This document shows positions 29-22,861 of a stretch of 34,111 nt of DNA, one piece after another. The position numbers were made by a program, and so were the translations under genes. Under the pieces are notes generated by a model, which was not told the origin of the DNA, made no database searches, and was given only the letters and a program-made list of their open reading frames with translations. The stretch spans positions 1 through 34,111 of the forward strand of contig CAJADV010000105.1 in NCBI GenBank assembly GCA_903938575.1, in the 5' to 3' direction. Origin of the DNA: an uncultured Gammaproteobacteria bacterium (GTDB taxonomy: Bacteria; Pseudomonadota; Gammaproteobacteria; Pseudomonadales; UBA5518). Position 1 is the first letter of the stretch; each line of letters starts with the position of its first letter.

Positions 29-733
29 TCAGGGGAGAAGCTCGACCTTGAGTTCGTAGCCGAGCTTGTCGCGTTCGCGGGTGCTGTAGGTCGCGTCCTC
101 GTCGGCGCTAATCCGAACGGCGCGCGTGCTGCCAGATCCGAGTTCGATCCAGCTCCCGAGCGCCCCGCGCAGACTGCTGCGCAAGGCGCCGTTGTGCAGC
201 GTGCCGGACTGCACACGGTCGTCCTGGATGTCGATATCAAGGGTAACGGTGTCCCCATCGACACGGGCGCTGATGACAAAACCGCTGTCCGCCTGCCCCC
301 AGACTATCTGCGGGCCGAGCAACCCGCCTGCGGCCAAGGGCACGAGGGAGCCTTCGCGCACCATGACCGGCGAGGACTCGAGGGTTCGAACCTGCTGCTC
401 CCGGGTGTCGCGGTTGCTGCTTGTGCTGTATTCACCCGCATGTGCGTCCTCCCGGGCACTGTTTCCTCCCCGACGCAGGCTTATCAGCAGGTTGCGCAAC
501 GGACGGTCGAGCTTGGCCACCAGCTCAGCGACACGCCTCAGGGTCTCAGGAGCGGCATTCACCACAAGGCTCGTGCGGAAGGCGCTGACCGATTCCCACG
601 GGCCGAGCAAGGGTTGAACGACCGGGATGAGCGACTCCGGGCTTGCGCTGTGCAGCTCGATCACCTGCGTCTCGGCCCTGACCACGCCCGCCACAAAAAA
701 GAACATCAGGCTGATCAGACGTGTCATCGGCAT
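29..733 (-). CDS. Secreted protein with secretin N-type (NolW-like) domain
   Basis: This 234-residue protein has a Sec-type signal peptide (MTRLISLMFFFVAGVVRA, then ETQV). Residues about 22-85 read like one secretin N-domain repeat: VIELHSASPESLIPVVQPLL, a hydrophobic strand SLVVNAAPETL, then AELVAKLDRPLRNLLISLRR. This is the pattern by which secretin periplasmic subdomains stack into rings. The middle (about 86-120) is polar and probably disordered, and the C-terminal part is rich in beta strands. There is no secretin pore domain, so it cannot form the outer-membrane channel alone. It probably works in the periplasm, but its partner is unknown. ATG at 733 is used; ATG at 727 would lose only two residues. 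It is divergent from tag. I recognise the fold type only, not a named gene. Confidence 0.72.
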   Translation of the reverse strand: MPMTRLISLMFFFVAGVVRAETQVIELHSASPESLIPVVQPLLGPWESVSAFRTSLVVNAAPETLRRVAELVAKLDRPLRNLLISLRRGGNSAREDAHAGEYSTSSNRDTREQQVRTLESSPVMVREGSLVPLAAGGLLGPQIVWGQADSGFVISARVDGDTVTLDIDIQDDRVQSGTLHNGALRSSLRGALGSWIELGSGSTRAVRISADEDATYSTRERDKLGYELKVELLP

Positions 734-8908: not shown

Positions 8909-10858
8909 TCAGCGTCCGCCGGTCGGTGAAAAGGTCTCGAAGTCCGGAAGCGCGGGCTGCGGCTCGCGCTGCAGGGGAAGATCTTTCTGCATGACGCTGG
9001 TCTGCTTGTTGCGCATGAATTCATAACGCTGGCGGGTCAGTTCGGCAATCTGGGCGTCATCTTTCAGGATCGTAGGGCGTATGAAGACCATCAGATTGGT
9101 CTTCGAGCGTGTCTTGCCCCTGCTCGAGAACAGACTCCCGACCAGCGGTAAGTCACCCAGGAAGGGCGTCTTCGTGCGCTGCTCGCCCGCCTTGTCCTGC
9201 AGCAGCCCGCCTATCACCAGCGTCTGCTGGTCTTTGATAAGTGCCTTGGTCTTGATCAGTCGTTTGTTGGTCACGATGTCCGAGGTCGTCGCCGCCAGTG
9301 AGTTCGACGGCGCGATATCCTCGGCGCTTTGCTTGATATCCAGCGTGATGGAGTCGCCCTGGTTGATCTGGGGTTTGATCACCAGGTTGATGCCGATGTC
9401 CTGACGCTCAATCGTAGTGAAGGGGTTTTCCACGGTCGAAGCCTGGCTGGTCGACTCGCCGGTTTTGAACGGGACGTTCTGGCCGACCAGCAGTTCCGCC
9501 TCCTCGTTGTCCAGCGCCACGATGGTCGGCGTGGACAGGATATTGGCTTTGGTGGTGGTCGACAGCGCGCGCACCACCGCCTTCAGGTCGCCGTTATCGA
9601 GGTAGCCCAAGGTGAGCCCCCCCTGGGGGTTAAGTGTCACGTTGCCATTGCTGTCCAGACCGGCACCGGAACTCAGATTCGCGCCGAGGGTGTTGTTCGC
9701 GATGTTGCCGCCATCGGAGGGAAAGCCCTTGTGTTCGCTGCCGATCCAGGCAACGCCCAAGTCATTCGCATCTTCGTCGGAGACCTCGACCACAAGCGCC
9801 TCGACCAGCACCTGCGCGCGGCGTATATCCACCTGCTCCACGATCGAGCGCATCTTCGCCACGATGGACGGGGGCGCGTTCACGATAAGCGCGTTGGTGC
9901 TCTTGCTGGCCTCGATGCTTACCTTGGAGCCCTGGCTCGCGCCGCCACCCTGGCCCCCACCCGCCGCGGCGGAGTCGCCCTGGAGCGCCTCGGCAACGCC
10001 CTTCAGGATCGCGAGCATCTCGTCGGCCTGCACATACTTCAGGTAAATCACGTCGGTGTTGCCGCCAGCCACTTCCTGGTCGAGGCTTGCGATGATATTG
10101 CGCACCTGACTGCGATTGGACGCGTCCCCACCCAGCAGGATCGTGTTGGTCCGGGTATCGACTGCCAGGTTCACGAACTTGTAGCCCTCGGTGCCCTGGA
10201 TCGCGGGGATCAGCTGCTGGAGGTTTTTCTCGACATCCTGTGCGTTGGCATGCTGGAGCCGGATAGTTTCGAACTGCAGATTTCCTGCTTGATCCAGCAG
10301 TTTCACCAGCTCGTTGATGCGCTGCACATTGGTTGCGCTGGAGGCTACGATCAGGCTGTTGGTCTCCGGGTAGGCCGTCAACATACCAGCCTGGGGCACC
10401 AGCGGGCGCAGGTTGCTGGCGAGCTGGCTCGCGGGAACGTTCTTGGCACGAATCACCGTGATCACGGTCTCGCCGCCGACGCCGCGCGAAATCTGAGGAC
10501 TGCTCGAGGTGGCCATGGCCTGGGGGACGATCTTGATTGCCCCGCCGGACTCGACGGCCGCGAAGCCGTTCACTTCGAGGGCCGACAGGAATACCTGATA
10601 GGCCTGTTCGGGGGTTACCGGATCAGCCGACAGCACCGTGACCTTACCCTGCACATCCTTGTGGACTATCAGGTTCTTTCCGGTGACATCGGCGACCCAC
10701 TGCACCAGCGAGCGGATGTCGGCGTCGCGCATGTTGAGGACCAGCTTGCCCGGCTCAACCGCGGACGCCTGCAACGGCCAGGTGGCGGCAAAAACAAGCC
10801 CCAGGACGGCAAGGACCTGCCGCGGTTTACGAATGGATGCTTTCGGTAATGCGATCAT
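8909..10858 (-). CDS. gspD: Type II secretion outer-membrane secretin (copy 1)
   Basis: Forms the outer-membrane channel of the T2SS. The 649-residue protein has a signal peptide (about 1-33, ending LQASA), then the N0 domain (VLNMRDADIRSLVQWVADV) and N1-N3 domains carrying NolW-type repeats (TVIRAKNVPASQLASNLRPL; IRLQHANAQDVEKNLQQLIP; VIYLKYVQADEMLAILKG). N3 holds a Gly-rich loop (GGGQGGGASQGS). The secretin pore domain contains VLVEALVVEVSDEDANDLGV, VGQNVPFKTGEST, VIKPQINQGDSITLDI and TPFLGDLPLVGSLF. The signal is not a lipoprotein type. The start overlaps the gspC stop as ATGA. With gspC upstream, this is probably the main T2SS secretin, in the xcpP-xcpQ arrangement of Pseudomonas. Confidence 0.97.
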   Translation of the reverse strand: MIALPKASIRKPRQVLAVLGLVFAATWPLQASAVEPGKLVLNMRDADIRSLVQWVADVTGKNLIVHKDVQGKVTVLSADPVTPEQAYQVFLSALEVNGFAAVESGGAIKIVPQAMATSSSPQISRGVGGETVITVIRAKNVPASQLASNLRPLVPQAGMLTAYPETNSLIVASSATNVQRINELVKLLDQAGNLQFETIRLQHANAQDVEKNLQQLIPAIQGTEGYKFVNLAVDTRTNTILLGGDASNRSQVRNIIASLDQEVAGGNTDVIYLKYVQADEMLAILKGVAEALQGDSAAAGGGQGGGASQGSKVSIEASKSTNALIVNAPPSIVAKMRSIVEQVDIRRAQVLVEALVVEVSDEDANDLGVAWIGSEHKGFPSDGGNIANNTLGANLSSGAGLDSNGNVTLNPQGGLTLGYLDNGDLKAVVRALSTTTKANILSTPTIVALDNEEAELLVGQNVPFKTGESTSQASTVENPFTTIERQDIGINLVIKPQINQGDSITLDIKQSAEDIAPSNSLAATTSDIVTNKRLIKTKALIKDQQTLVIGGLLQDKAGEQRTKTPFLGDLPLVGSLFSSRGKTRSKTNLMVFIRPTILKDDAQIAELTRQRYEFMRNKQTSVMQKDLPLQREPQPALPDFETFSPTGGR

Positions 10859-11502
10859 TGGCGTGTCCGGTTGCGAAGCTCTTCGAGGCGTTGGCGGATC
10901 AATACCGCCTTCTCCTCAGCGGGCATGTTCGAGGGTATCGGCTGGTTTTCGCCTGCGTCCACTATTGACGCCTCGGCGCTTTCGGGGAGTCCCCCGGAGG
11001 CCGTGGCCTGTGTCGATGCAATATCGGCAAGGCGTGCGAAGGAAAGTGTTTCAAGACGACCCGAGCGGTCGAGGACCACGTGATCCGGGCGAACCTCGCG
11101 CAGAAAAAGCCCGGGCTCTACAGCCTGGCCCACGTTGTACCACTGGGCCTGGCCGCCGCTGCTTTCAATGATTGCTCCGCCCGCACCTTCGGCCCCCGCG
11201 AACGCCGCGCGCAATACGTAACCCGTTGTTTCCACGCCTGGCTGCACGCCCGCGGCGGCGCCTGAAGCGTCCGATGCGGGCCGGCCGAACAGATTGGCGC
11301 TCAGAATGACGGGTAGGGGATCCACGTCAGCTCCGGTGACTACCGGCGCATGCGCAGTACTGTTCTCCTCAGCATTCATTGCTGAGGACCAGCGCAGCAG
11401 CTGCCAGCCTGTGCCCGACAGTCCGATCACCGCCACGAGCGCGGCGACCGCCGTGCCCGGGGCAAGGCTTATTCTGTCTTCAAGCAATGCACGCATGGAC
11501 AA
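10855..11502 (-). CDS. gspC: Type II secretion inner-membrane protein GspC (XcpP-like)
   Basis: Connects the inner-membrane platform with the secretin. The 215-residue bitopic protein has a short cytoplasmic tail, a membrane segment (about 14-38, GTAVAALVAVIGLSGTGWQL) and the homology region HR from about 60 to 145 (LPVILSANLFGRP; GYVLRAAFAG; YNVGQAVEPGLFLREVRPDH; VVLDRSGRLETLSF), which binds the GspD N0 domain. No PDZ domain follows. The C-terminus is a charged helix (PAEEKAVLIRQRLEELRNRT) that may be a short coiled coil, as reported for XcpP. ATG at 11502 or 11496 are both possible. It is translationally coupled to gspD. The 185 bp before gspE must hold the divergent promoters, but no strong -35/-10 pair was found there. 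Confidence 0.93.
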   Translation of the reverse strand: MSMRALLEDRISLAPGTAVAALVAVIGLSGTGWQLLRWSSAMNAEENSTAHAPVVTGADVDPLPVILSANLFGRPASDASGAAAGVQPGVETTGYVLRAAFAGAEGAGGAIIESSGGQAQWYNVGQAVEPGLFLREVRPDHVVLDRSGRLETLSFARLADIASTQATASGGLPESAEASIVDAGENQPIPSNMPAEEKAVLIRQRLEELRNRTRQ

Positions 11503-11687
11503 AAGTATCTCCCTGCTGTAACGACACCTGTTCCCGGAAATTTCGTCGCCGGAAATCCGCCACTGGGCACGACTTGTGCAAATCCCAAGCCAGCGTCGAC
11601 TTACTGTCTCTCGCCGGCCGCCTGTAGGGGGGCAAGAGCAGGGTGCCGATGCTACAGTTACGATCGAAGCCGGAGGGGCAAGCGCTC

Positions 11688-13163
11688 ATGCAAACGATTC
11701 CCTACGCGTACGCCAAGCGACATGGCGCCCTGCTGCGGATGCCCGAAGAGGGTGCCGAGACAAAACCCCGCCTGGTCCACCGCTTTAACGTGCCGGTGCA
11801 GGCTGTCGCCGAGATCCAGAGACTGACCGGTGTTGCGTTCACCTGCGAGCCGGTGAGCGACGAGGATTTCGACAAGGCGCTCGCCGACACCTATGAACAG
11901 AAGAGTGGCGCCGCCCAGCGCATCTCGGCAGGTCTTGAGGACGAGCTCGATCTCAGCAGCATCGCCGAGTCCGTCCCGGAAACCGAGGACCTGCTGGAAC
12001 AGCAGGAAGACGCACCTATCATCCGACTGATCAACGCGATTCTCGCCCAGGCCATCAAGGAGGGCGCCTCCGACATACACGTCGAGCCCTACGAAAAACG
12101 CCTCGTCATACGTTTCCGCGTCGATGGCATGTTGAGAGAGGTGGTCGAGCCCAAGCGCGAGCTCGCGCCTCTGCTCATATCACGTATCAAGGTCATGTCC
12201 CGCCTCGATATCGCCGAGAAACGGGTGCCGCAGGACGGGCGGATATCGATTCGCGTTGGCGGTCGCGAGATCGATCTGCGCGTCTCCACGCTGCCGTCTG
12301 CCAACGGCGAGCGAGTGGTGATGCGTATCCTGGACAAGAACCAGGCTCGTCTGGATCTGGATCGTCTGGGATTCCAATCGGCCGCGCTAGACGCGCTGAA
12401 GGGGCTTCTGGCGCGCCCCCACGGAATTATTCTCGTTACCGGCCCGACCGGTTCCGGGAAGAGCACCACGCTCTACGGTTGCCTCAACAACCTTAACGAT
12501 GGCAAGAGCAATATCCTCACTGTTGAAGACCCCATCGAATACAACATCGAGGGGATCGGCCAGACGCAGGTAAACGTCAAGGCGGGCATGACCTTCGCCT
12601 CCGGCCTTCGCGCCATGCTGCGGCAGGATCCTGACGTGGTGATGGTCGGTGAGATCCGCGACGCCGAGACCGCGGGAATCGCCGTACAGGCGAGCCTCAC
12701 CGGTCACCTGGTGCTCTCGACGCTGCATACCAACACGGCTGCGGGGGCGGTGACCCGGCTTGAGGACATGGGCATCGAGCCGTTTCTGCTCGCCTCCAGC
12801 CTTAACGGCATCATTGCGCAGCGCCTGGTCAGGGTGCTTTGCAGCGAGTGCAAACAACCCCATTCACCCACTGCCGCCGAGATGGAAATCCTGCAGATAC
12901 GCAGCTCCGACGAGCATCTGCTGTTCCGCCCGCGGGGTTGCTCTGCCTGCAACGATCGCGGTTACCGCGGACGCATGGGTCTCTACGAGCTGCTCGTGGT
13001 CGACGACACCATCCGGTCCCTGATCCACAAGCACGCGCCTGAGGAAGAGATCGTTGCCCAGGCCCGCAAGACCCAGCAGTCGCTTCGCAGCGATGGCAGG
13101 AACAAGGTGCTGACCGGTCGCACCACCCTCGAAGAGGTCCTGCGTGTGACAAGGGAAGACTGA
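11688..13163 (+). CDS. gspE: Type II secretion ATPase GspE
   Basis: The cytoplasmic ATPase that drives pseudopilus assembly. It is 491 residues from ATG 11688, which has a GGAGGGG site 9 bases upstream; an ATG at 11643 in the same frame lacks this. The N1E-type start MQTIPYAYAKRHGALLRMP is followed by Walker A GPTGSGKSTTLYG (residues 252-264), an Asp-box region DIHVEPYEKRLVIRFRVDG, Walker B LRQDPDVVMVGEIRDAETA and the His box TGHLVLSTLHTNTAAGAV. The zinc module has Cys385, Cys388, Cys418 and Cys421 (CSEC and CSAC), as in active GspE. It is the first gene of the rightward operon, divergent from gspC-gspD, and gspF follows after 3 bp. Confidence 0.97.
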   Translation: MQTIPYAYAKRHGALLRMPEEGAETKPRLVHRFNVPVQAVAEIQRLTGVAFTCEPVSDEDFDKALADTYEQKSGAAQRISAGLEDELDLSSIAESVPETEDLLEQQEDAPIIRLINAILAQAIKEGASDIHVEPYEKRLVIRFRVDGMLREVVEPKRELAPLLISRIKVMSRLDIAEKRVPQDGRISIRVGGREIDLRVSTLPSANGERVVMRILDKNQARLDLDRLGFQSAALDALKGLLARPHGIILVTGPTGSGKSTTLYGCLNNLNDGKSNILTVEDPIEYNIEGIGQTQVNVKAGMTFASGLRAMLRQDPDVVMVGEIRDAETAGIAVQASLTGHLVLSTLHTNTAAGAVTRLEDMGIEPFLLASSLNGIIAQRLVRVLCSECKQPHSPTAAEMEILQIRSSDEHLLFRPRGCSACNDRGYRGRMGLYELLVVDDTIRSLIHKHAPEEEIVAQARKTQQSLRSDGRNKVLTGRTTLEEVLRVTRED

Positions 13164-13166
13164 GGC

Positions 13167-14384
13167 GTGGCAGCGTTCAGCTACGCGGTACTCGATGCTG
13201 GCGGCAAGCAGCGTCGCGGCACGCTTGAGGCCGACAATGCGCGGCACGCACGGCAACTGCTGCGCGATCGCGGATTGGTGCCGCTGGAAGTCTCCCCCCT
13301 CAACACCGAAGCGCGCGCGGGCAAGCAGAGCACGGCAGGATCACGGACCGCGCTCTCCGTGTCGGAGGTCTCTCTCTTTACCCGCCAGCTCGCCACGCTG
13401 ATTCAGTCATCGCTGCCCATTGCGGATGCGCTGATGGCAATCGCCCAGCAGAGCGAGCGGCCGCAGACGAAGGGTCTGGTCTCAAGCCTGCGCACCCAAG
13501 TTCTGGAGGGGCGCTCGCTGGCCGCAGCGATGGCGCAGTTCCCCCGAGCATTCCCCTCGATGTACCGCGCCACCGTGGCCGCCGGCGAGCACACGGGGCG
13601 CATTGATCTCGTGCTCTCAAAGCTCGCGGATTACACCGAGTCGAGCCACAAGTCGCGCCAGAAAGTGCAGTTGGCGCTGATCTACCCCAGCGTGCTGCTT
13701 GGTCTTGCCGTACTGGTCGTCACGGGGCTTTTGACCTACATCGTGCCGGACGTGGTGAAGGTCTTTGCCAACGAAGGGCAGTCGCTGCCGCCTCTCACCC
13801 AGGCGATGCTCGATGCCAGCGACTTCCTTGTGAATTGGGGCGCCTGGATGGTGGTTGCCATCATCGGGTTCGTGTTTCTTGCGCGTGCGCTGCTCCAGGA
13901 TCCCGGACGCAGGGAGGCCGCGGACGGATTTTTGCTCAGGCTGCCGCTGGCGGGGCGCATGAGTCTGACGGCCAATAGCGCCCGCTTTGCCGGCACCCTG
14001 AGCACTCTGGTCTCGAGCGGCGTGCCCTTGGTGGATGCCCTGGATATCGCGGCGGCCGTGCTGACCAACACCGCGCTCAAACGCGTGGTGGGCGAGGCAG
14101 CGGGGCAGGTGCGGGAGGGCAGCAGCCTGAAGGCGGCGCTGGAGCGAAGCGGCAAGTTTCCTCCGATGATGATCTACATGATCGCCAGCGGTGAGCAGAG
14201 CGGCGAGCTGGAGCGGATGCTCGCCCGCGTTGCCGAAAGTCAGCAGAACGATCTCGACAACCGCATCGCCACCATGCTCGGCTTGCTCGAGCCCGCTGTT
14301 CTGCTCTTCATGGGCGTGGCTGTACTATGCATCGTCGTGGCGATACTCCAGCCAATCTTCTCCCTCAACCAGCTGATCAAGTAG
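13167..14384 (+). CDS. gspF: Type II secretion inner-membrane platform protein GspF
   Basis: The polytopic platform protein on which pseudopilins assemble. The 405-residue protein starts with GTG (AAFSYAVLDAGGKQRRGTLE). It has two repeated T2SSF helical domains: VSLFTRQLATLIQSSLPIAD with LSKLADYTESSHKS, and ARFAGTLSTLVSSGVPLVDA with MLARVAESQQNDLDNRI. Membrane segments lie at about 169-195 (LIYPSVLLGLAVLVVTGLLT), 228-246 and 373-395 (VLLFMGVAVLCIVVAILQPI). It has the usual family length and domain order. The gene is 3 bp after gspE, and gspG begins 11 bp after its stop. Confidence 0.96.
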   Translation: MAAFSYAVLDAGGKQRRGTLEADNARHARQLLRDRGLVPLEVSPLNTEARAGKQSTAGSRTALSVSEVSLFTRQLATLIQSSLPIADALMAIAQQSERPQTKGLVSSLRTQVLEGRSLAAAMAQFPRAFPSMYRATVAAGEHTGRIDLVLSKLADYTESSHKSRQKVQLALIYPSVLLGLAVLVVTGLLTYIVPDVVKVFANEGQSLPPLTQAMLDASDFLVNWGAWMVVAIIGFVFLARALLQDPGRREAADGFLLRLPLAGRMSLTANSARFAGTLSTLVSSGVPLVDALDIAAAVLTNTALKRVVGEAAGQVREGSSLKAALERSGKFPPMMIYMIASGEQSGELERMLARVAESQQNDLDNRIATMLGLLEPAVLLFMGVAVLCIVVAILQPIFSLNQLIK

Positions 14385-14395
14385 AGGTTTATTCC

Positions 14396-14830
14396 GTGCA
14401 AAACACAGTGCAGCGCAATCGCGGCTTCACGCTGATCGAGATCATGGTCGTCGTGGTCATCATCAGCGTGCTGATCGGTCTGGTGGCTCCCAATATCATG
14501 GGGCGTGTAGACGAGGCAAAGGTGACCGCCGCAAGGGCCGACATCGCCACCATGTCGCAGGCTTTGGACATGTACCGTATAGACAACGGCAGCTACCCGA
14601 GCACCGAGCAGGGTTTGCAGGCTCTGGTGGAAAAACCCTCCGGCACACCGGAGCCGCGCAACTGGAGTTCCTCCGGGTATATGAAAAAGAAAGATCTTCC
14701 GAAGGACCCATGGGCTAACGACTACCAATACATCCGCTACCCGGACAACCGCTTCGACATCGTAAGCAACGGGGCGGATGGTCGCGAAGGCGGCGAAGGC
14801 TACGATGCCGATATCACGTCGGGGCAGTGA
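14396..14830 (+). CDS. gspG: Major pseudopilin GspG
   Basis: The main subunit of the T2SS pseudopilus. From GTG 14396 (AGAGG 8 bases upstream) it has 144 residues and a ten-residue leader QNTVQRNRG ending in Gly. Prepilin peptidase would cut before FTLIEIMVVVVIISVLIGL; Glu5 of the mature protein is present. The family signatures are YPSTEQGLQALVEKP and DIVSNGADGREGGEGYDADI, the loop that carries the calcium ligands. A second GTG at 14408 would give a shorter leader but is worse spaced from the ribosome site. The 3' end overlaps gspH by 26 bp. Confidence 0.96.
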   Translation: MQNTVQRNRGFTLIEIMVVVVIISVLIGLVAPNIMGRVDEAKVTAARADIATMSQALDMYRIDNGSYPSTEQGLQALVEKPSGTPEPRNWSSSGYMKKKDLPKDPWANDYQYIRYPDNRFDIVSNGADGREGGEGYDADITSGQ

Positions 14831-15329
14831 TCCCGCTGCCGGCTTCACGCTGATCGAGATGCTGGTAACGCTGGTCATCATGGCGTTGCTCGCGGGTTTG
14901 GCTTCGCTGTCCGTGGGCGGCAGTGCCCAGCGTGGCGCCCGTGACGAGATGAACCGGATTCGCGAGTTGCTGTCCTTCGCCAGCGAGGAAGCATTGATGG
15001 AAGGCGATGAGTTCGGACTGATCATGGAGGAGGGGGCCTACCGCGTCCTGCGCTTCGACCCGCTTGCGGAGTCCTGGACCGAGCTCACGGACAAACCCAT
15101 GGATCCCCACGAAATCCCGCCGGGCATGCGGCTTGATCTGAAGCTTGATGCCGGCTCGCGTACCGCGGCGTCCTCGCGCCCCGCGGACGCGGAGAACCCG
15201 GTGCCGGAAATCCTCCTGTCCTCCAGCGGCGAGATCACGCCGTTCCGATTGGAGATCCGCGTTGCGGAAAGTCCGGACGCGGTGGCAGGTATAGAGAGCG
15301 ATGGCAGTGGCACGCTCCGTGATCTGTGA
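14805..15329 (+). CDS. gspH: Minor pseudopilin GspH
   Basis: A minor pseudopilin of 174 residues. The leader MPISRRGSDPAAG is followed by FTLIEMLVTLVIMALLAGLA, with Glu5 after the Gly cleavage site. The helical region (RGARDEMNRIRELLSFASEE) is followed by a GspH-type beta domain (EGDEFGLIMEEGAYRVLRFD) and PEILLSSSGEITPFRLEI near the end. ATG at 14805 places the leader at normal length; an ATG at 14778 in the same frame would add nine residues. It overlaps both neighbours, gspG by 26 bp and gspI by 29 bp, so the pseudopilin genes are tightly coupled. Confidence 0.92.
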   Translation: MPISRRGSDPAAGFTLIEMLVTLVIMALLAGLASLSVGGSAQRGARDEMNRIRELLSFASEEALMEGDEFGLIMEEGAYRVLRFDPLAESWTELTDKPMDPHEIPPGMRLDLKLDAGSRTAASSRPADAENPVPEILLSSSGEITPFRLEIRVAESPDAVAGIESDGSGTLRDL

Positions 15330-15687
15330 GCCCGCGCGCGGATTTACGCTCATAGAAGTGCTTGTGGCGCTGGCGATACTTGCCGTACTCGCCACCACAC
15401 TGGTATCTCAAAGCGGGAACTTCTCAGCGCAGCTCTTTCGCCTCGAAGACAAGACCATTGCGCTATGGGTCGCTCAGAATGCGCTTGACGAAGCGCGCCT
15501 TGAGGAGCGTGCCGCCGAGGCGCAGAAGCCCGTCGAGGTCGAGATGGCGGGGCGTACGTGGCGGGTATCGCGCAGTATCACGCCGACCGAGCGCCCCGGT
15601 TTCAGCCGCATCGAGGTTGGTGTCACACGAGATGGTGATGAGGAGCAGTTGCTCTCGTTGAGCGGCTTCCGGGCTGAGACACGATGA
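15301..15687 (+). CDS. gspI: Minor pseudopilin GspI
   Basis: A minor pseudopilin of 128 residues that in known systems starts the pseudopilus tip complex with GspJ and GspK. The leader (MAVARSVICEPARG) is followed by FTLIEVLVALAILAVLATTL with Glu5. The ALWVAQNALDEARLE block is characteristic of GspI. The C-terminal strand region reads RTWRVSRSITPTERPGFSRI, then VGVTRDGDEEQLLSLSGF. The start lies inside the end of gspH (29 bp overlap). The stop overlaps gspJ's start as ATGA. Confidence 0.94.
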   Translation: MAVARSVICEPARGFTLIEVLVALAILAVLATTLVSQSGNFSAQLFRLEDKTIALWVAQNALDEARLEERAAEAQKPVEVEMAGRTWRVSRSITPTERPGFSRIEVGVTRDGDEEQLLSLSGFRAETR

Positions 15688-16364
15688 GGGCCTGCGCGCA
15701 CGCTGAACGCGGACGTGGCTTCACCTTGATCGAGGCGATGGTTGCCATGGCGATCTTTGCCTTTATCGGAGTCGCCGCCTATTCGCTGCTGTCCTCGACG
15801 GGCCGGCTGAAGGAAAGCGGTGAGGTCCGCTTCCGCGCGCTTTCTGGACTTCAACTCGGTATGCGTCAGATCGAGGAGGACTTCAGCCAGTTCGCCGGAC
15901 GGCCGGTTAACGGGCCGGGCGCCAAACCTGCATCTGCGCTCGACGCCTCGCCAGAGGATGCCGTGGTTGCGTTGACCCGTGCCGGTTGGCGCAATCCCCT
16001 CGGTGTGCAGCGTTCGGGCCTGCAGCGTGTCGAGTGGGCCCTGGACGAGGACGGCCGATTGCTGCGGCGTTACCGCAAGGATCTCGACGATCTCGATCCC
16101 GACGAAACCGTGGAGCGCGTCTTCGTCGAGGCTGTAGAGTCCTTCGAATTGCGGTATATGGATGAAAAGGGACAGTGGCTCGAAGAGTGGCCTCCCGAGT
16201 CGGGCCCTGGAACTGCCGCAAGTGCATCTCCCGCATCTCCCGCATCTCCCGCATCTCCCGCCGGTACTGACATCGGCGAGGAGCAGCAGGTTCCCGTGGC
16301 CGTGGAGGTACGCATAAAGCAGTCGCAGATCGGCGAGGTGTTCCGTGTCATACCGCTGCGCTGA
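15684..16364 (+). CDS. gspJ: Minor pseudopilin GspJ
   Basis: A pseudopilus tip protein of 226 residues. The leader MRACAHAERGRG is followed by FTLIEAMVAMAIFAFIGVAA with Glu5. The typical GspJ blocks are ALSGLQLGMRQIEEDFSQFA, ALTRAGWRNPLGVQRSGLQR, and VEWALDEDGRLLRRYRKDLD. A low-complexity insert near residues 181-192 is made of four Ala-Ser-Pro units and sits just before the final strands (VPVAVEVRIKQSQIGEVFRV). The insert is probably a flexible surface loop. The start overlaps gspI as ATGA, and gspK begins 20 bp before this gene ends. Confidence 0.95.
   Translation: MRACAHAERGRGFTLIEAMVAMAIFAFIGVAAYSLLSSTGRLKESGEVRFRALSGLQLGMRQIEEDFSQFAGRPVNGPGAKPASALDASPEDAVVALTRAGWRNPLGVQRSGLQRVEWALDEDGRLLRRYRKDLDDLDPDETVERVFVEAVESFELRYMDEKGQWLEEWPPESGPGTAASASPASPASPASPAGTDIGEEQQVPVAVEVRIKQSQIGEVFRVIPLR
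16224..16259 (+). repeat. Four perfect 9-bp tandem repeats inside gspJ
   Basis: The unit GCATCTCCC occurs four times in a row and encodes Ala-Ser-Pro each time. Because the unit is a multiple of three, gain or loss by slippage would change the protein length without breaking the frame. Confidence 0.95.
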
Positions 16365-17298
16365 AGGGACTGCGCGGGCTCCGAGCCAGCGCGGCGTTGC
16401 GCTGATCACGGTTATGCTCGTGTTCGTGCTGGCCACCCTGATGGCCACGCAGATGCTGCGCACGGGTTATCTGGCGCTGCGGCGTACCGGCAACCTGATC
16501 GATTCGACCCAGGCACGCTATTACGCACTCGGCGCCGAGGAACTCGGGCGCCAGCTGCTCGCGGAAGATGCCAAGTCAGCTCCCGTCGGCCAGAACACCG
16601 ACAATCTGAAAGAACGTTGGGCCTCTGCCAAACTCCAGTTCGAATTCGAGGACGGGCAACTCGAACTGCACATCGAGGACCTTGCGGGCCGTTTCAATGT
16701 CAACGGATTGGTCGATCGCAGCGGCAAGGCGATCCCGCGTGAAGTCGCCCGGTTCGCGCGTCTGCTGCGGGAGCTGGATATCGACCCCGCATTTGCCGAA
16801 GCCGCCGCGGACTGGGTCGATGCCGACGGATCTACCACCCGGGGAGGAGGGGAGACGTCGGCCTATGGGCAGATGGTGTTTCCCAATGCACCCATGGTCG
16901 ACCCTTCGGAGATGAGGAGCCTGCCAGGATTGGACGCGGCAGGCTGGCGCCGCCTGGGGCCATTTCTGGCCGCAATACCTACCGGTACGCGCCTGAACGT
17001 GAACACCGCGGCACCCGAAGTTCTGCTCGTCTACGCCGAGACCGTCGTCAGACCAGCCGATATGGAACGATTCGTGCTTTCAAGAGATCAACAACCGATC
17101 CGTGACGCTGCTGATCCGCGGCTGGGCACTGTGTTCGGTGGTGCCGCTTCCGTACTGGACGTGCGGAGCGATTTTTTTATGCTGCAGGTACACGCGCAAT
17201 ACCGGGGCCGGAACTCGCGATTCGAGACCCGTGTGAGACGTGATCCGCGCAAGGGTAATACGACGATCCTGGGGCGCAGCGACGCCTCGCGCATCTAG
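16345..17298 (+). CDS. gspK: Pseudopilin GspK (tip component)
   Basis: The large atypical pseudopilin that caps the pseudopilus. The 317-residue protein starts with GTG. The leader ends SQRG, followed by VALITVMLVFVLATLMATQM; the mature position 5 is not Glu, as is usual for GspK. The alpha domain and calcium-site regions include the blocks DLAGRFNVNGLVDRSG, FAEAAADWVDADGSTT, MRSLPGLDAAGWRRLGPFLA and GTRLNVNTAAPEVLLVYAET. It overlaps gspJ by 20 bp and is followed by gspL after 16 bp. Confidence 0.95.
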   Translation: MSYRCAEGTARAPSQRGVALITVMLVFVLATLMATQMLRTGYLALRRTGNLIDSTQARYYALGAEELGRQLLAEDAKSAPVGQNTDNLKERWASAKLQFEFEDGQLELHIEDLAGRFNVNGLVDRSGKAIPREVARFARLLRELDIDPAFAEAAADWVDADGSTTRGGGETSAYGQMVFPNAPMVDPSEMRSLPGLDAAGWRRLGPFLAAIPTGTRLNVNTAAPEVLLVYAETVVRPADMERFVLSRDQQPIRDAADPRLGTVFGGAASVLDVRSDFFMLQVHAQYRGRNSRFETRVRRDPRKGNTTILGRSDASRI

Positions 17299-18586: not shown

Positions 18587-19141
18587 ATGGCAGATCTTGC
18601 GACATTCCGCCTGGAGATGCGGCGTCAGGCCGAGGATCTTGCGAGCCGGATGATGGCCTCGGACGCCGGGCAGCGGCTGCTGGCCTTCTACGATCAACTC
18701 GGTGAGCGCGACCGCCTGGCGCTCAGGCTGCTCGGTTTGTTTGCCGGAGTGCTCTGCCTATACCTGATGCTCATCGCGCCGCTTGCCGAACACGGCAACA
18801 GGGCTGCCCGCCGCCTCGATGACGAGCGCGCACTGCTCGCATGGCTGCGCTCGCACGAGGCCGAAGCGGGTAATGCACCAAGCGGCTCAGCTGCCGCTCG
18901 CAGCGAGCCGCTAGCGACTCTCGTCAACAAGACCGCCGACGAAAACGGGGTCTCGATCCGTCGCTACGAACCCGCAGGAGAGGACGGAGTGAGGCTCTGG
19001 CTTGAGGGAGCCTCGTTCAACGCAGTGGTCAAATGGCTTTTCCTGCTCGAGGGCAGCCACGGTATCCGCGCTGAGGAGTTCAGTATCGAGCGCGAATCCA
19101 CCCCCGGGGTGGTGAGCGTGCGGCTCACCCTGCGCGGCTGA
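18587..19141 (+). CDS. gspM: Type II secretion protein GspM
   Basis: A small bitopic inner-membrane partner of GspL. The 184-residue protein has a cytoplasmic amphipathic start, a YDQLGERDRLALRLLGLFAG block typical of GspM, a membrane segment at about 44-66 (LLGLFAGVLCLYLMLIAPL), a periplasmic helix (RAARRLDDERALLAWLRS) and a ferredoxin-like domain ending VVSVRLTLRG. The start codon is directly adjacent to the gspL stop. No gspN follows; a GspA-type ATPase is next after 6 bp. Confidence 0.92.
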   Translation: MADLATFRLEMRRQAEDLASRMMASDAGQRLLAFYDQLGERDRLALRLLGLFAGVLCLYLMLIAPLAEHGNRAARRLDDERALLAWLRSHEAEAGNAPSGSAAARSEPLATLVNKTADENGVSIRRYEPAGEDGVRLWLEGASFNAVVKWLFLLEGSHGIRAEEFSIERESTPGVVSVRLTLRG

Positions 19142-19147
19142 ATCGAC

Positions 19148-20008
19148 GTGTACCATCAATATTTCGGTCTGAGGGCGCTGCCTTTTTCCATCGCGCCCGA
19201 TCCGCATTACCTCTATCTCAGCAACCAGCATCGCGAAGCGCTCGCGCACCTGCTCTACGGCGTAGGGGCCAGCGGGGGCTTTGTCCTGCTGACGGGCGAG
19301 GTCGGAACCGGCAAAACCACGGTCTGTCGCTGCCTGCTGCAACAACTCCCGGAAGGCACCGAGGTGGCTTTCATCATCAACCCGATGCAGTCGCCCACCG
19401 ATCTTGTTGCATCGATCTGTGACGAACTGCGCCTGCCATCAGCCGAGGACGGCGGCAGCATAAAGCGTCAGACCGATCGGCTGCTGGCCCACCTTATCGA
19501 TACCCACGCGCGCGGTTACCGCACGGTCGTGCTGATCGACGAGGCGCAAAACCTTCCGGTAGAGACCATGGAGCAAATCCGCCTGCTCACCAACCTCGAG
19601 ACCGATGACACCAAGCTTCTCCAGCTCGTACTGATCGGCCAGCCCGAGCTTAACGATAAGCTGGCGCTGCCCGAGTTGCGCCAATTTGGCCAGCGCATCA
19701 CTGCGCGCTATCACCTGGGTCCGCTGACGCTTCGCGAGACGCGCGCCTACATCCAGCATCGGCTTGCGGTTGCGGGCGTCTATGACGAGATCTTTCCCGA
19801 TTGGTCGTTGCGGAAAATCCACGCCGCAAGCGGGGGCGTTCCACGTCTGATCAACGTGCTCTGCGACCGCGTGTTGCTGGGGGTCTATGCAGCGAGTGCA
19901 AAGTCACTCGCACGCCGCCATGTACGGAGCGCGATCCGCGAAGTCCTGCCGCCACGCGCGCGTGCCCGTGGCTTCTGGCGATGGTTGCCCGCCCTGTTGC
20001 GAGGTTGA
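19148..20008 (+). CDS. gspA: GspA/ExeA-type ATPase
   Basis: An AAA ATPase of the ExeA family, which with GspB helps secretin assembly through peptidoglycan in Aeromonas. The 286-residue protein (GTG start) begins YHQYFGLRALPFSIAPDP, a family hallmark. Walker A is LLTGEVGTGKTTVCRCL (Lys56) and Walker B is VVLIDEAQNLP (Asp131, Glu132). ExeA is about 550 residues, with a membrane segment and a C-terminal peptidoglycan-binding domain. This protein stops soon after the ATPase with a basic, Trp-containing tail (RARARGFWRWLPALLRG), so those parts are absent. No frameshift leading into a lost C-terminus is seen: gspB begins 1 bp later. Confidence 0.9.
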   Translation: MYHQYFGLRALPFSIAPDPHYLYLSNQHREALAHLLYGVGASGGFVLLTGEVGTGKTTVCRCLLQQLPEGTEVAFIINPMQSPTDLVASICDELRLPSAEDGGSIKRQTDRLLAHLIDTHARGYRTVVLIDEAQNLPVETMEQIRLLTNLETDDTKLLQLVLIGQPELNDKLALPELRQFGQRITARYHLGPLTLRETRAYIQHRLAVAGVYDEIFPDWSLRKIHAASGGVPRLINVLCDRVLLGVYAASAKSLARRHVRSAIREVLPPRARARGFWRWLPALLRG

Positions 20009-20009
20009 G

Positions 20010-20657
20010 ATGTCCTACATCCTTGACGCGCTGAAAAAATCCGACCGCGACCGCGATCGTCACCGCCAGGCCCCCCTCGCACCGATCACCGGTACGCCGG
20101 AATTCCGCGCTGGTCGCCGGACCGGCGCGGGCAGGTTCCGGTTGTTAGGCGTCGCCGTACTCCTGGTTGGCGCGGCGTGGGGAGGGTTCGGGCTCGCGAG
20201 ACTGGAGCCCCGTCTCGATTCCCGCACCACGGTCCAGACTCTGCCGTTGCAGGTTGTCCCGCCGGCATCGGTGCCGACACCCGCCGCGCTTGTAGCCAGC
20301 AACGCGCAACCTCTGCACGCGACACCAACCACCGATGCGTCATCCGTAAGCGCCGGTTCCGCTTCCGTGTTGGACGACTCATCAGCCACCCCAAGCGCGG
20401 AGGCTCGTACGCGAGAAGGACTGTTGGAGCTTTGGCAGCTCACCGACGCAGAGCAGAAATACCTGCAGGGGCTCGATGTCAGCTTTCACGTGCATTCAAA
20501 CGATCCCGCGCAACGGGCTGTGATCATCAACGGCTTGCGCGCGAAGGAGGGGCAGGCGCTTGGTGAAGACCTGCGTCTGGCTGAAATCGTGCCCGATGGA
20601 GTGATCCTGGAATTCCAGGGCCAGCGCGTTCACCTCGGGAATCCGCAGCCCTACTGA
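20010..20657 (+). CDS. gspB: GspB-type secretin assembly factor
   Basis: The 215-residue bitopic protein begins SYILDALKKSDRDRDRHR, the cytoplasmic signature of GspB/ExeB. The membrane segment is at about 43-62 (FRLLGVAVLLVGAAWGGFGL). A long Pro/Ala/Ser/Thr-rich linker follows, then a C-terminal GspB domain (YLQGLDVSFHVHSNDPAQRA, then VIINGLRAKEGQALGEDLRL). In known systems this domain contacts the secretin. ATG at 20010 lies 1 bp after the gspA stop, and TTGAG upstream may be a weak ribosome site. The 3' end overlaps the convergent second secretin gene by 7 bp. Confidence 0.92.
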   Translation: MSYILDALKKSDRDRDRHRQAPLAPITGTPEFRAGRRTGAGRFRLLGVAVLLVGAAWGGFGLARLEPRLDSRTTVQTLPLQVVPPASVPTPAALVASNAQPLHATPTTDASSVSAGSASVLDDSSATPSAEARTREGLLELWQLTDAEQKYLQGLDVSFHVHSNDPAQRAVIINGLRAKEGQALGEDLRLAEIVPDGVILEFQGQRVHLGNPQPY

Positions 20658-22561
20658 GCGGGCTTTTCTGCAGCGGGGAGTTCCGGCAACAGCGGCGCTG
20701 ATGCAGGAGCCAAAGGACCACCCAATGGGGCCGCAGGCGCCTGCTGCAACTCCCGAATCGCGTTGTAACGGTCGCGGGTTTCCTGCTCAGCCGTGTTCAT
20801 GTCCGTCAATATCCGCGTGCGCACGAACACCATCAGGTTCCTGCGGTCTACCTTGTCAGTCGTGCTGCGAAACAGGGCTCCGAGCAGCGGAAGATCGCCA
20901 AGGAAGGGTATCTTGCTTACCGACTTCACTCGCTTGTTTTCGGTCAGGCCGCCCAGAACAAGGATGTCCTGATCGCCCAGCATCACTGAAGTGTGGACAC
21001 TGCGCTTGTCGGTCACCACGTCCTCTGCTGCGGTGGAGTCGGTGAGCGTCTCGACGGTCTGCAGGATGTCCAGCGTGATCGCATCGCCCTGATTGATCTG
21101 GGGCTTCACCTTCAGCGTGACGCCAATGTCCTGTCGCGCGATGGTGGTAAACGGATTGGTAACCGGTGCTCCACCGCTGGTTGCCTCTCCGGTCTTGAAG
21201 GGCACATTCGAGCCCACAAGAATTTCCGCTTCCTGGTTGTCCAGCGTGACGATCGAGGGAGTGGACAGGATATTGGAGTTCCCCGTTTTCTCGAGGGCCT
21301 GCACGACGGCGCGCAGTGAGCCGTTGCGGAAGTAGCCAAGCGTCAGTCCCGCTCCGACATTGTCGAGCGCCGATGCCCCCCCTTGGATCTGACCGCCGGG
21401 AAACCGGCTGATGGCCTCGGTGCCATCGCCATTGAAGGCGGTCTTCCATTCCACACTGAGCTCGCGGGCCACGTTCTCGTCAACCTCAGCGATGATCGCT
21501 TCGACCAGCACCTGGGCGCGGCGGATATCGAGCTTGCGGATGACCTCCATGACGTCCTGCAAGCGGTCCGGAGGCGCATTGATCACGAGCGCATTGGTGG
21601 AGTCGCTGGACTCGATGGAAACGGCAGCGGTCTTGGTGGGCGCTCCCTTGGCATCTTTTTGCTCGAGGATGCCTTTGAGTAGAGGAACCATCTCGGAGGC
21701 TTTGAGGTAGTGCAGATACACCACCTGGATGCTCCCCTCGCTGATCTGCGGCTGATCCAGGCGCGACACCAATTCGCGGACCTTGGCACGCATCTCCGGA
21801 GGGCCCGCCAGGAGAATCGAATTCGAGCGCTCGTCTGCCACCAGCTGCAGGCCAGCGCCTGCATTCTTGCCAAGCATGCCCTCGAGGACTTTCAGCATCT
21901 CGGGTGCGGCGGCATGCTGCAGCGCTACCGCGTCAAACTCCATGGACCCACTGTTGTCGAGCTCACGGGCGATACGGGAAATGCGTTTCACACCGCTCGC
22001 GACATCTGTGATCAGCAGGGCGTTCTGACCCGGGAGGGCGACGATGCCCGCCTGCGGCGGCATCATGGGTTTCAGCGTACTGGCCATTTGCTCTGCTGGC
22101 AGGAACCCGAGCCGTATCACTTCGTTGACGGGGAGATCCGCAGAATTTTCGTCGAGCGATTCGAGAAAGCGCGTGGCGCCGGTGCGCACATTGGCCGCAG
22201 GAACGATCGCAAGGACATCGCCCTGATCGATCGCGGCATAGCCATAGACCCCGAGTGAAGCAATCACCACCCGGAAGGCCTCATCCGCCGTCATCGGGTC
22301 CCGCGCGAGAATGGTCACGGTGCCGCGCACACGGGGATCAATCACAACCCGTTTTCCGCTGGTCTCGGCAAGCCACTCGAGCACCGACCCGATGTCTGCA
22401 TTGCGCATGTTCAAGGTGATGCGCGGGGGCTCGGCAGCCATGCTTGCGGCCGCGAGGGCACAGCAGAACAGCGCTGCCACGAGCGGGCGGCGGCGGGATC
22501 TGTGGTGGTTCGCGGCAACTGACGGCTGCACCGGTTCTGGCAATTCCTTGTCACTGGACAT
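20651..22561 (-). CDS. gspD: Second GspD-type secretin
   Basis: A full-length 636-residue secretin of the T2SS GspD family, paralogous to the one at 8909-10858. A signal peptide (about 25-42, ending AAASMA) is followed by N0 (ITLNMRNADIGSVLEWLAET) and N1-N3 domains (VIRLGFLPAEQMASTLKPMM; VALQHAAAPEMLKVLEGMLG; VVYLHYLKASEMVPLLKGIL). The pore domain has VGSNVPFKTGEAT, VKPQINQGDAITLDI and IPFLGDLPLLGALF. It lacks the Gly-rich N3 loop of copy 1 (a short Lys-rich EQKDAKGAPTK is there instead) and ends in a Pro/Ala-rich tail. It has its own possible promoter and converges on gspB. It may serve a second channel, replace copy 1 under other conditions, or work with GspA/GspB. Confidence 0.95.
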   Translation of the reverse strand: MSSDKELPEPVQPSVAANHHRSRRRPLVAALFCCALAAASMAAEPPRITLNMRNADIGSVLEWLAETSGKRVVIDPRVRGTVTILARDPMTADEAFRVVIASLGVYGYAAIDQGDVLAIVPAANVRTGATRFLESLDENSADLPVNEVIRLGFLPAEQMASTLKPMMPPQAGIVALPGQNALLITDVASGVKRISRIARELDNSGSMEFDAVALQHAAAPEMLKVLEGMLGKNAGAGLQLVADERSNSILLAGPPEMRAKVRELVSRLDQPQISEGSIQVVYLHYLKASEMVPLLKGILEQKDAKGAPTKTAAVSIESSDSTNALVINAPPDRLQDVMEVIRKLDIRRAQVLVEAIIAEVDENVARELSVEWKTAFNGDGTEAISRFPGGQIQGGASALDNVGAGLTLGYFRNGSLRAVVQALEKTGNSNILSTPSIVTLDNQEAEILVGSNVPFKTGEATSGGAPVTNPFTTIARQDIGVTLKVKPQINQGDAITLDILQTVETLTDSTAAEDVVTDKRSVHTSVMLGDQDILVLGGLTENKRVKSVSKIPFLGDLPLLGALFRSTTDKVDRRNLMVFVRTRILTDMNTAEQETRDRYNAIRELQQAPAAPLGGPLAPASAPLLPELPAAEKPAQ

Positions 22562-22607: not shown

Positions 22608-22635
22608 AGCATAGTCGGTGCTGGCCGCTTGCCAA
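22608..22635 (-). promoter_or_regulatory. Candidate sigma-70 promoter of the second gspD
   Basis: On the - strand TTGGCA (5 of 6 to TTGACA, at 22630-22635) is followed after 16 bases by TATGCT (4 of 6 to TATAAT, at 22608-22613). It lies 47 bases upstream of the second secretin's ATG, in the gap after the small secreted protein gene. Confidence 0.42.
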
Positions 22636-22654: not shown

Positions 22655-22861
22655 CTAGCGACAGAGTTCCGCAATTCGCTCGTTTAAGCTGCGAACCCGT
22701 GCATGCAGCCGGTTTGCGGCGTCCGCGCCATGAGGGCGGCGCAACTGCTGATAGGCACGTTGGCGCTGTGCTTCGAGGCTATCGCAGCTGTCAGCGGCGC
22801 TGACTCCTGAGGTACTGCCCACAAGCAGGCAGGCGGCGATAATCATGATCGACGATTTCAT
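22655..22861 (-). CDS. Small secreted protein with two cysteines
   Basis: The 68-residue protein begins MKSSIMIIAACLLVGSTSGV, followed by SAAD, a clear Sec signal peptide. The mature part is about 45 residues (DSCDSLEAQRQRAYQQLRR; ANRLHARVRSLNERIAELCR). It has one Cys near each end and a probable helical hairpin between them, so a disulfide could close it. The pattern recalls short DUF1090-like periplasmic proteins, but the match is not firm. ATG at 22861 is chosen because AAGGAGGG lies 7 bases upstream; the frame is open to 22918, but that part lacks a signal peptide start. It is divergent from mobA. I do not recognise a function. Confidence 0.68.
   Translation of the reverse strand: MKSSIMIIAACLLVGSTSGVSAADSCDSLEAQRQRAYQQLRRPHGADAANRLHARVRSLNERIAELCR

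Follow-up and report, generated by a model that had tools for sequence, protein, structure and literature searches.

Two GspD secretins beside a single GspC in a type II secretion locus of an uncultured UBA5518 gammaproteobacterium

A complete type II secretion system (T2SS) locus lies in a 34,111-nucleotide stretch of DNA (the window) from an uncultured Gammaproteobacteria bacterium of the Pseudomonadales lineage UBA5518 (assembly GCA_903938575.1, contig CAJADV010000105.1). The locus encodes two GspD secretins. One gene, gspD1 (8909..10858, minus strand), encodes a 649-residue protein (D1) and is coupled to gspC; the other, gspD2 (20651..22561, minus strand), encodes a 636-residue protein (D2) and has orthologues in six families. 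D2 is intact, is separated from D1 by an old split, is inherited together with D1, has no GspC of its own, has kept the surface that docks onto GspC and is under purifying selection. On the strength of sequence comparisons, we lean towards the view that D2 is a second functional outer-membrane channel which would share the single GspC platform, with the choice between the two exits probably depending on condition or cargo. The genome to which the window belongs, as contig C105, measures 4.36 Mb in 661 contigs and is 97.4 percent complete (G000 below).

The two secretins of the locus

Both proteins exceed the cut-off (351) of the curated GspD model TIGR02517, D1 with 531 bits and D2 with 474 bits. 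A type IV pilus identity (PilQ), which the initial annotation had raised as a doubt, was rejected for D2, which scores 232 bits against a PilQ cut-off of 284. The observation of a second full-length GspD in this locus is therefore real, and two intact genes account for it. Each protein contains an N0 domain (105 bits in D1), three Secretin_N stretches and a Secretin domain (PF21305, three copies of PF03958 and PF00263 in D2), and the pore motifs are common to both. The two proteins of the genome are 43 percent identical, and they differ, as had been noticed from the sequence, in the N3 loop and the C-terminal tail. The N3 loop of the window's D1 is rich in Gly (GGGQGGGASQG), a feature missing from D2. 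An aromatic tail motif was matched by one regular expression in 12 of 13 D1 rows and in 3 of 13 D2 rows; none of the three D2 rows from the window's genus contains it. Inspection by eye showed that the expression had overlooked one D1 tail, as well as three D2 tails, of near form and had matched a neighbouring stretch in two D1 rows. The tail is also more variable in D2, with a mean identity of 0.258 within D2 and 0.382 within D1.

By sequence, the closest solved relative of both proteins is XcpQ (PDB 5wln; 338 bits for D2 and 372 bits for D1). The predicted structure of D2 is weak (mean predicted local distance difference test 68, predicted template modelling score 0.40), with the elements in the expected order; Trp63 falls in the helix that follows the opening strand of N0. 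The first ten matches of this model in a Foldseek search were GspD-type secretins, with PulD, GspD, EpsD and ExeD at the top, at a poor overall superposition (query template modelling score only 0.25-0.32 for the ten and 0.27-0.32 for the best ones).

The gene order of the locus is D1-C on the minus strand, E to M followed by A and B on the plus strand, and D2 on the minus strand. The eleven genes from gspE to gspB, which stand between gspC and D2, are thus on the strand opposite to both secretin genes. D1 (8909-10858) overlaps gspC (10855..11502, minus strand; PF11356, 70.8 bits) by 4 bp, and the 3' ends of D2 and gspB overlap tail to tail by 7 bp (20651-20657), which agrees with the earlier description of one secretin coupled to gspC and another converging on gspB. 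The same 7-bp overlap is found in two related genomes, G008 and G113, where the stop-free frames of gspB and gspD2 share their last base and the stop codons make up the rest (L038 at 3401; L039 at 3686). There is no gspC adjoining D2; the one GspC detected in the genome adjoins D1. For annotators, it is a warning that one T2SS locus may hold two true GspDs.

Conservation of the pairing

Among 145 genomes of the order that were searched, 139 had a match at E 1e-20, and 40 stretches were compared with the window's proteins. Ten genomes from four families, counting that of the window, have the complete order D1-C / E to M-A-B / D2 on a single contig: G000, G008, G113 and G051 (family f1, the window's genus), G068, G127 and G099 (f47), G067 and G029 (f29), and G003 (f4), the gspC of which was detected by the Pfam model and missed by BLAST. 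Since the entire order is kept in these 10 genomes, D2 is no local accident. In three more genomes (G140, G047 and a metagenome bin named Oceanicoccus, L094) the contig is broken but D2 adjoins gspB, which brings to 13 the number of genomes with D2 at the gspB end. Two frames intervene between gspB and D2 in G127 and G099; a scan of those in G127 identified a dehydrogenase and a universal stress protein. The frame of the matched gene in G051 is itself open, and the two apparent stop codons belong to a match that extends beyond the frame end.

In a larger draw of 390 genomes, 36 matched at E 1e-128, including those already found. Four added genomes (G164, G185, G205 and G265), judged from position and strand alone, have two matches on one contig and on the same strand, 11.9-12.8 kb apart. 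D1 was present in every D2 genome among those examined. Neither D1 nor D2 was found in G156, a genome of the window's genus that is 88 percent complete. A record titled Klebsiella pneumoniae (L078, CAMAXE010000001.1) carries a D2 that is 95 percent identical, together with a T2SS and neighbours of the type seen in the window's genus; it is probably a mislabelled metagenome bin.

Phylogeny of the secretins

In a tree of 52 rows, D1 and D2 each formed a clade of 16 rows (Shimodaira-Hasegawa-like approximate likelihood ratio test, SH-aLRT, 99 each), and both clades span the families f1, f47, f29, f4, f31 and f12. Because the same six families occur in each clade, the split between D1 and D2 is old. 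A tree of 137 rows, in which named organisms were included, gave 17 rows for D2 and 18 for D1, again with an SH-aLRT of 99 each. Left out of this tree were proteins shorter than 560 residues or scoring less than 250 bits, ten loci that were repeats of others or third copies, and any row that had a 100-residue stretch in common with a row already included. The bin named Oceanicoccus (Spongiibacteraceae), a genus that has cultured members, falls in the D2 clade.

A group of 17 rows, termed X, comprises secretins from Cellvibrionaceae, Porticoccaceae and other families as well as the second T2SSs of some dual genomes. X was sister to D1, with D2 outside, at a support of 92 (52 rows), 96 (137 rows) and 93 (36 rows). 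Nine Pseudomonas rows were assigned to the XcpQ type from an identity of 62 to 79 percent to the 5wln segment, and the XcpQ-type secretin of P. alcaligenes (L205) was recognised by a gspC-gspD pair divergent from gspE to M. A second group (Ps) includes secretins of seven Pseudomonas loci with no gspE in the stretch examined (L082 to L086, L088 and L137); in L137 a gspC-like gene adjoins the secretin. Three of these secretins (L085 and L137, 2-11815; L086, 3-11872) stand beside a frame of about 3000 residues on the opposite strand; Big_7 repeats were shown for L085 only, and a gspC-like neighbour of the secretin was confirmed for L137 only.

Alternative groupings were compared by approximately unbiased (AU) tests on 36 rows drawn from an 83-row set, for which ten near-copies or long branches had been dropped and only 14 of 62 distant rows retained. 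In these tests, the p values of which are weakened because the groups were named after the first tree, D2 and the XcpQ-type Pseudomonas secretins were rejected as one group (p 0.0001) and D2 with two Pseudomonas secretins lacking a nearby platform (L083 and L084) gave p 0.032. Neither D2 with D1 as one clade (p 0.078) nor D2 with the Ps group (p 0.243) was rejected, so that the tests are compatible with more than one deep branching among these groups and X. The comparison with known secretins proposed in the initial annotation accordingly separates D2 from the XcpQ type and leaves a joint origin with the Ps group standing, among tree rows that contain no labelled XqhA.

The two groupings that survived the tests would accommodate a D2 that arose as a copy of D1 within the lineage or was acquired from Pseudomonas as an XqhA-type gene. 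We regard either origin as very improbable, given that the two proteins of one genome are only 43 percent identical and that the groupings with the XcpQ type and with L083 and L084 fared as described. In addition, the residue at D2 position 75 is Asp in all D2 (17/17), Ps (11/11), XcpQ-type (12/12) and other (62/62) rows, and His in all D1 (18/18) and X (17/17) rows, a distribution in agreement with the placement of X as sister to D1.

One GspC and one GspL beside two secretins

GspC (PF11356) and GspL (PF05134) were counted over 17 genomes. Five of them (G000, G008, G054, G115 and G087) hold one GspC and one GspL beside two GspDs, and G067 has one GspL, one GspC above the cut-off and one below it. 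The remaining 11 genomes have two GspCs each; in G051 and G068, the surroundings of which were examined, the second GspC sits with a second T2SS gene set (L068 and L071). The count is the same in G008, an assembly of some 50 contigs with a listed completeness of 100 percent, as in the many-contig G000. D2 thus lacks a canonical platform of its own, subject to the caveat of a divergent cluster on contig C35 that is taken up below. Of the earlier proposal of two channels on one platform, the gene count thus stands, and the sharing itself is what we infer from it.

A secretin search of the genome found seven places, namely D1, D2, two PilQ-type pieces on two contigs, MshL and two divergent GspD-like secretins. 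One of the latter (L222, G000:C534, 1200-12447) is on one strand with a PBP_like_2 gene and a 2412-residue frame bearing a DUF3739 haemagglutinin-type domain, and this cluster might serve to export a giant surface protein. The pilotins PulS/OutS (PF09691) and AspS (PF16549) were each found in none of six genomes, with an E. coli control positive for both.

The docking surface for GspC

According to a published study, GspD contacts the homology region (HR) of GspC mostly through the opening strand and opening helix of N0, and Ile18 of Vibrio cholerae GspD, at the centre of the contact, and Asn22 were examined by mutation (PMC3169554). Ile18 aligns with Trp63 of D2 and Trp54 of D1. Tryptophan is invariant at this docking centre in D2 (17/17) and D1 (18/18) and is found in 0 of 12 XcpQ-type rows, all 12 of which have Gln or Glu. 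Over the docking segment (D2 48-67), the mean identity between D2 and D1 is 0.532, versus 0.429 in the rest of the protein (306 pairs). The relation is reversed in the comparisons with X, with 0.354 versus 0.456 for D1-X, 0.334 versus 0.429 for D2-X and 0.218 versus 0.460 for X-Ps. When 131 windows were ranked by the excess likeness of D1 and D2 over X, the docking windows came 1st and 2nd (4.4 and 3.8 standard deviations); they were 9th and 16th over the XcpQ type, and 4th and 5th over the rest. D1 and D2 have thus both retained an old docking surface that was lost in X, which fits, without proving, the use of one shared GspC.

Upstream region and selection

A sigma-70-like site, TTGGCA-16-TATGCT (22608..22635, minus strand, read from 22635 to 22608), lies upstream of gspD2, with one site found and 0.4 expected. 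In five aligned sequences of the genus, the window's among them, both hexamers are kept in four and CTATGCTT in all five. The promoter that had been suggested for the second secretin is thus upheld as a candidate that is kept within the genus. Directly upstream of gspD2 and likewise on the minus strand, at 22655..22861, is the frame of a 68-residue protein with two cysteines and, as judged by eye, a signal peptide. It occurs in all five same-genus genomes with D2 (window included) and matched no Pfam family; its membership of the T2SS is uncertain, and it may be a helper of D2 or a bystander.

The ratio of non-synonymous to synonymous substitution (dN/dS) relative to G008 is 0.098 for D2, 0.040 for D1 and 0.029 for gspE. 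Relative to G113 it is 0.103 for D2 and 0.096 for D1, figures that are unsure because dS is greater than 1 and saturating. By these ratios D2 is under purifying selection, and the possibility of a pseudogene was rejected on an open frame and a dN/dS of about 0.1. D2 does evolve somewhat faster than D1 on the G008 comparison, and it is 76 percent identical to its counterpart in G113, where D1 is 85 percent identical, although the two ratios to G113 are close. Together with the common family and domain set, this would be expected of a redundant spare without a role distinct from that of D1, retained for dosage or stress. Such a spare seems rather improbable to us, as the old split has been retained in six families and the tails and N3 loops of the two proteins differ.

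A probable arrangement of two exits on one pump

Several observations weigh against a platform shared by D1 and D2. In the stretches examined from family f12 (19 kb each for L052 and L057, and a contig of 4.4 kb for L049), D2 has no gsp neighbours, and in two of these genomes the T2SS locus comprises D1, C, E to M, A and B and lacks D2 after gspB (L072 with L192; L073 with L191). The f31 genome G070 has D2 on a separate contig without gsp genes, and in the f31 genome G031 D1 is present and D2 was not found. The window's own genome encodes the two divergent GspD-like secretins (312 and 234 bits, below the GspD cut-off) and a divergent E-F-K cluster, the GspC of which, if any, is unseen by the Pfam model. 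At the docking surface, the central Trp is likewise present in X (17/17) and Ps (11/11), Asn22 of V. cholerae corresponds to Thr67 in D2 and Val58 in D1 at a position that varies in both clades, and the docking windows rank only 7th and 38th of 131 over Ps. The docking likeness of D1 and D2 may thus be kept ancestry. Further, D1-D2 pairs of the same family were not significantly closer to each other in the docking segment than pairs of different families (1204 of 5040 permutations as high), and hence no co-evolution with a shared partner was seen.

The distance of D2 from T2SS genes in f12 and f31, and the divergent E-F-K cluster, are what would be expected if D2 served another machine or an unrecognised partner, such as a cargo of its own, instead of this GspC platform. 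One candidate is the T2SS-like cluster on contig C35 (L221, 1-10717), which contains T2SSE, T2SSF and T2SSK genes. That cluster has a 907-residue secretin frame of its own, however, and D2 is located at the gspB end in 13 genomes, two intervening genes being present in 2 of these, and retains the docking surface; service to another machine is therefore held to be unlikely.

In the body of the protein, beyond the docking segment, same-family D1 and D2 show a slightly higher identity than D1 and D2 from different families (0.449 versus 0.424; 1 of 5040 permutations as high). This could reflect shared composition or gene conversion. It could also be the trace of a mixed ring, in which D1 and D2 would co-assemble and D2 would be a second subunit of the same channel; the identical domain set and pore motifs, and the company of D1 in every D2 genome examined, would be in keeping with such a ring. 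We consider it rather improbable, since D2 lies about 10 kb from D1 and has its own promoter-like site, the D2 of f12 is distant from the genes of the machine, and the effect on body identity could be caused by a common base composition.

With the same pairing in several related families and, to the extent that the genome reveals it, one canonical inner-membrane engine, a single pump probably serves two exit gates in this cell. In the mechanism that we propose, D2 would be made from its own promoter, would assemble as its own ring and would dock through N0 onto the only GspC that the locus encodes. Two alternative exits could then share one inner-membrane platform and its pseudopilus, and the exit would be chosen by condition or by cargo. 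The expression of D2, its binding to GspC, its separate ring and a distinct regulation or cargo of the two channels are all inferred, as are the sharing of the platform and the condition-dependent replacement that the initial annotation had envisaged. A wider generalization, to which we give somewhat less than even credence, is that these loci represent a T2SS class in which two exits are built in. One GspC platform would multiplex between two dedicated secretins, the second of them lacking a private GspC, in an arrangement that predates the families in which it occurs. If two exits are indeed served, the docking of platform to channel would be a regulated switch and not a fixed joint. Lineages with two GspDs and one GspC make the question of whether the T2SS channel is fixed or exchangeable a testable one.

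Other genes of the window

The genes between gspC and gspD2 are all on the plus strand. They are gspE, encoding the ATPase (11643..13163; TIGR02533, 700 bits), gspF (13167..14384; TIGR02120, 483 bits), gspG (14327..14830; TIGR01710, 180 bits; start codon unrefined), gspH (14778..15329; TIGR01708, 103 bits), gspI (15301..15687; TIGR01707, 75 bits), gspJ (15684..16364; TIGR01711, 112 bits), gspK (16345..17298; NF037980, 243 bits), gspL, the sole GspL gene detected in the genome (17240..18586; PF05134, 88 bits), and gspM (18587..19141; PF04612, 115 bits). They are followed by a gene for an AAA ATPase (19148..20008; PF13401, 100 bits), which we take to be gspA from its position ahead of gspB, and by gspB (20010..20657), whose start was picked by eye within a longer frame (19887-20657) that matches PF16537 at 58 bits. 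At the left end of the window (29-733, minus strand), a 234-residue protein has one short Secretin_N-type domain (PF03958, 36 bits) and no further Pfam match.

Comparison with known systems

To our knowledge, XqhA, which brings a GspC and a GspD together, is the one described case of a change of channel on a T2SS platform. The closest precedent for a spare T2SS channel is the XphA/XqhA pair (PaQa) of P. aeruginosa, in which an extra GspD outside the locus of the machine is differently regulated and said to form a hybrid with the Xcp platform (PMC6567927). The likeness to D2 lies in the extra GspD. XphA/XqhA is a GspCD pair in which XqhA comes with its own GspC, XphA (PMC6567927), whereas D2 has no private GspC in a genome with one GspC. 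In addition, D2 is inside the same locus as the machine, yet on the strand opposite to E-B and with its own promoter-like site. The comparison with XqhA made in the initial annotation therefore finds no support in its details; D2 may work like XqhA, but it is not shown to be XqhA, because it lacks a private GspC and its grouping with the XcpQ type was rejected.

The XcpQ type of P. alcaligenes (L205) resembles the window in having gspC-gspD divergent from gspE. It differs in having one GspD in the sole locus examined whole (L205, 19 kb), and XcpQ-type rows in general have Gln or Glu at the docking centre (12/12) in place of the Trp of D1 and D2. In Aeromonas, where GspAB is required for the assembly of ExeD, the genes for ExeA and ExeB (GspA and GspB) are near the secretin, as they are here; in the window, gspAB close the E-to-M operon and D2 converges on them. 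GspD-alpha and GspD-beta of E. coli belong to separate T2SSs. Like the window, they represent two GspD types in one strain, and they are paired with known pilotins (PMC3542185), whereas PulS/OutS and AspS were not found in the six genomes searched here.

No earlier report of two GspDs in one T2SS locus was recognised in the open-access literature, as judged from listings. For a spare GspD on a T2SS, XqhA is the known precedent, and the single GspC is where the present locus differs from it.

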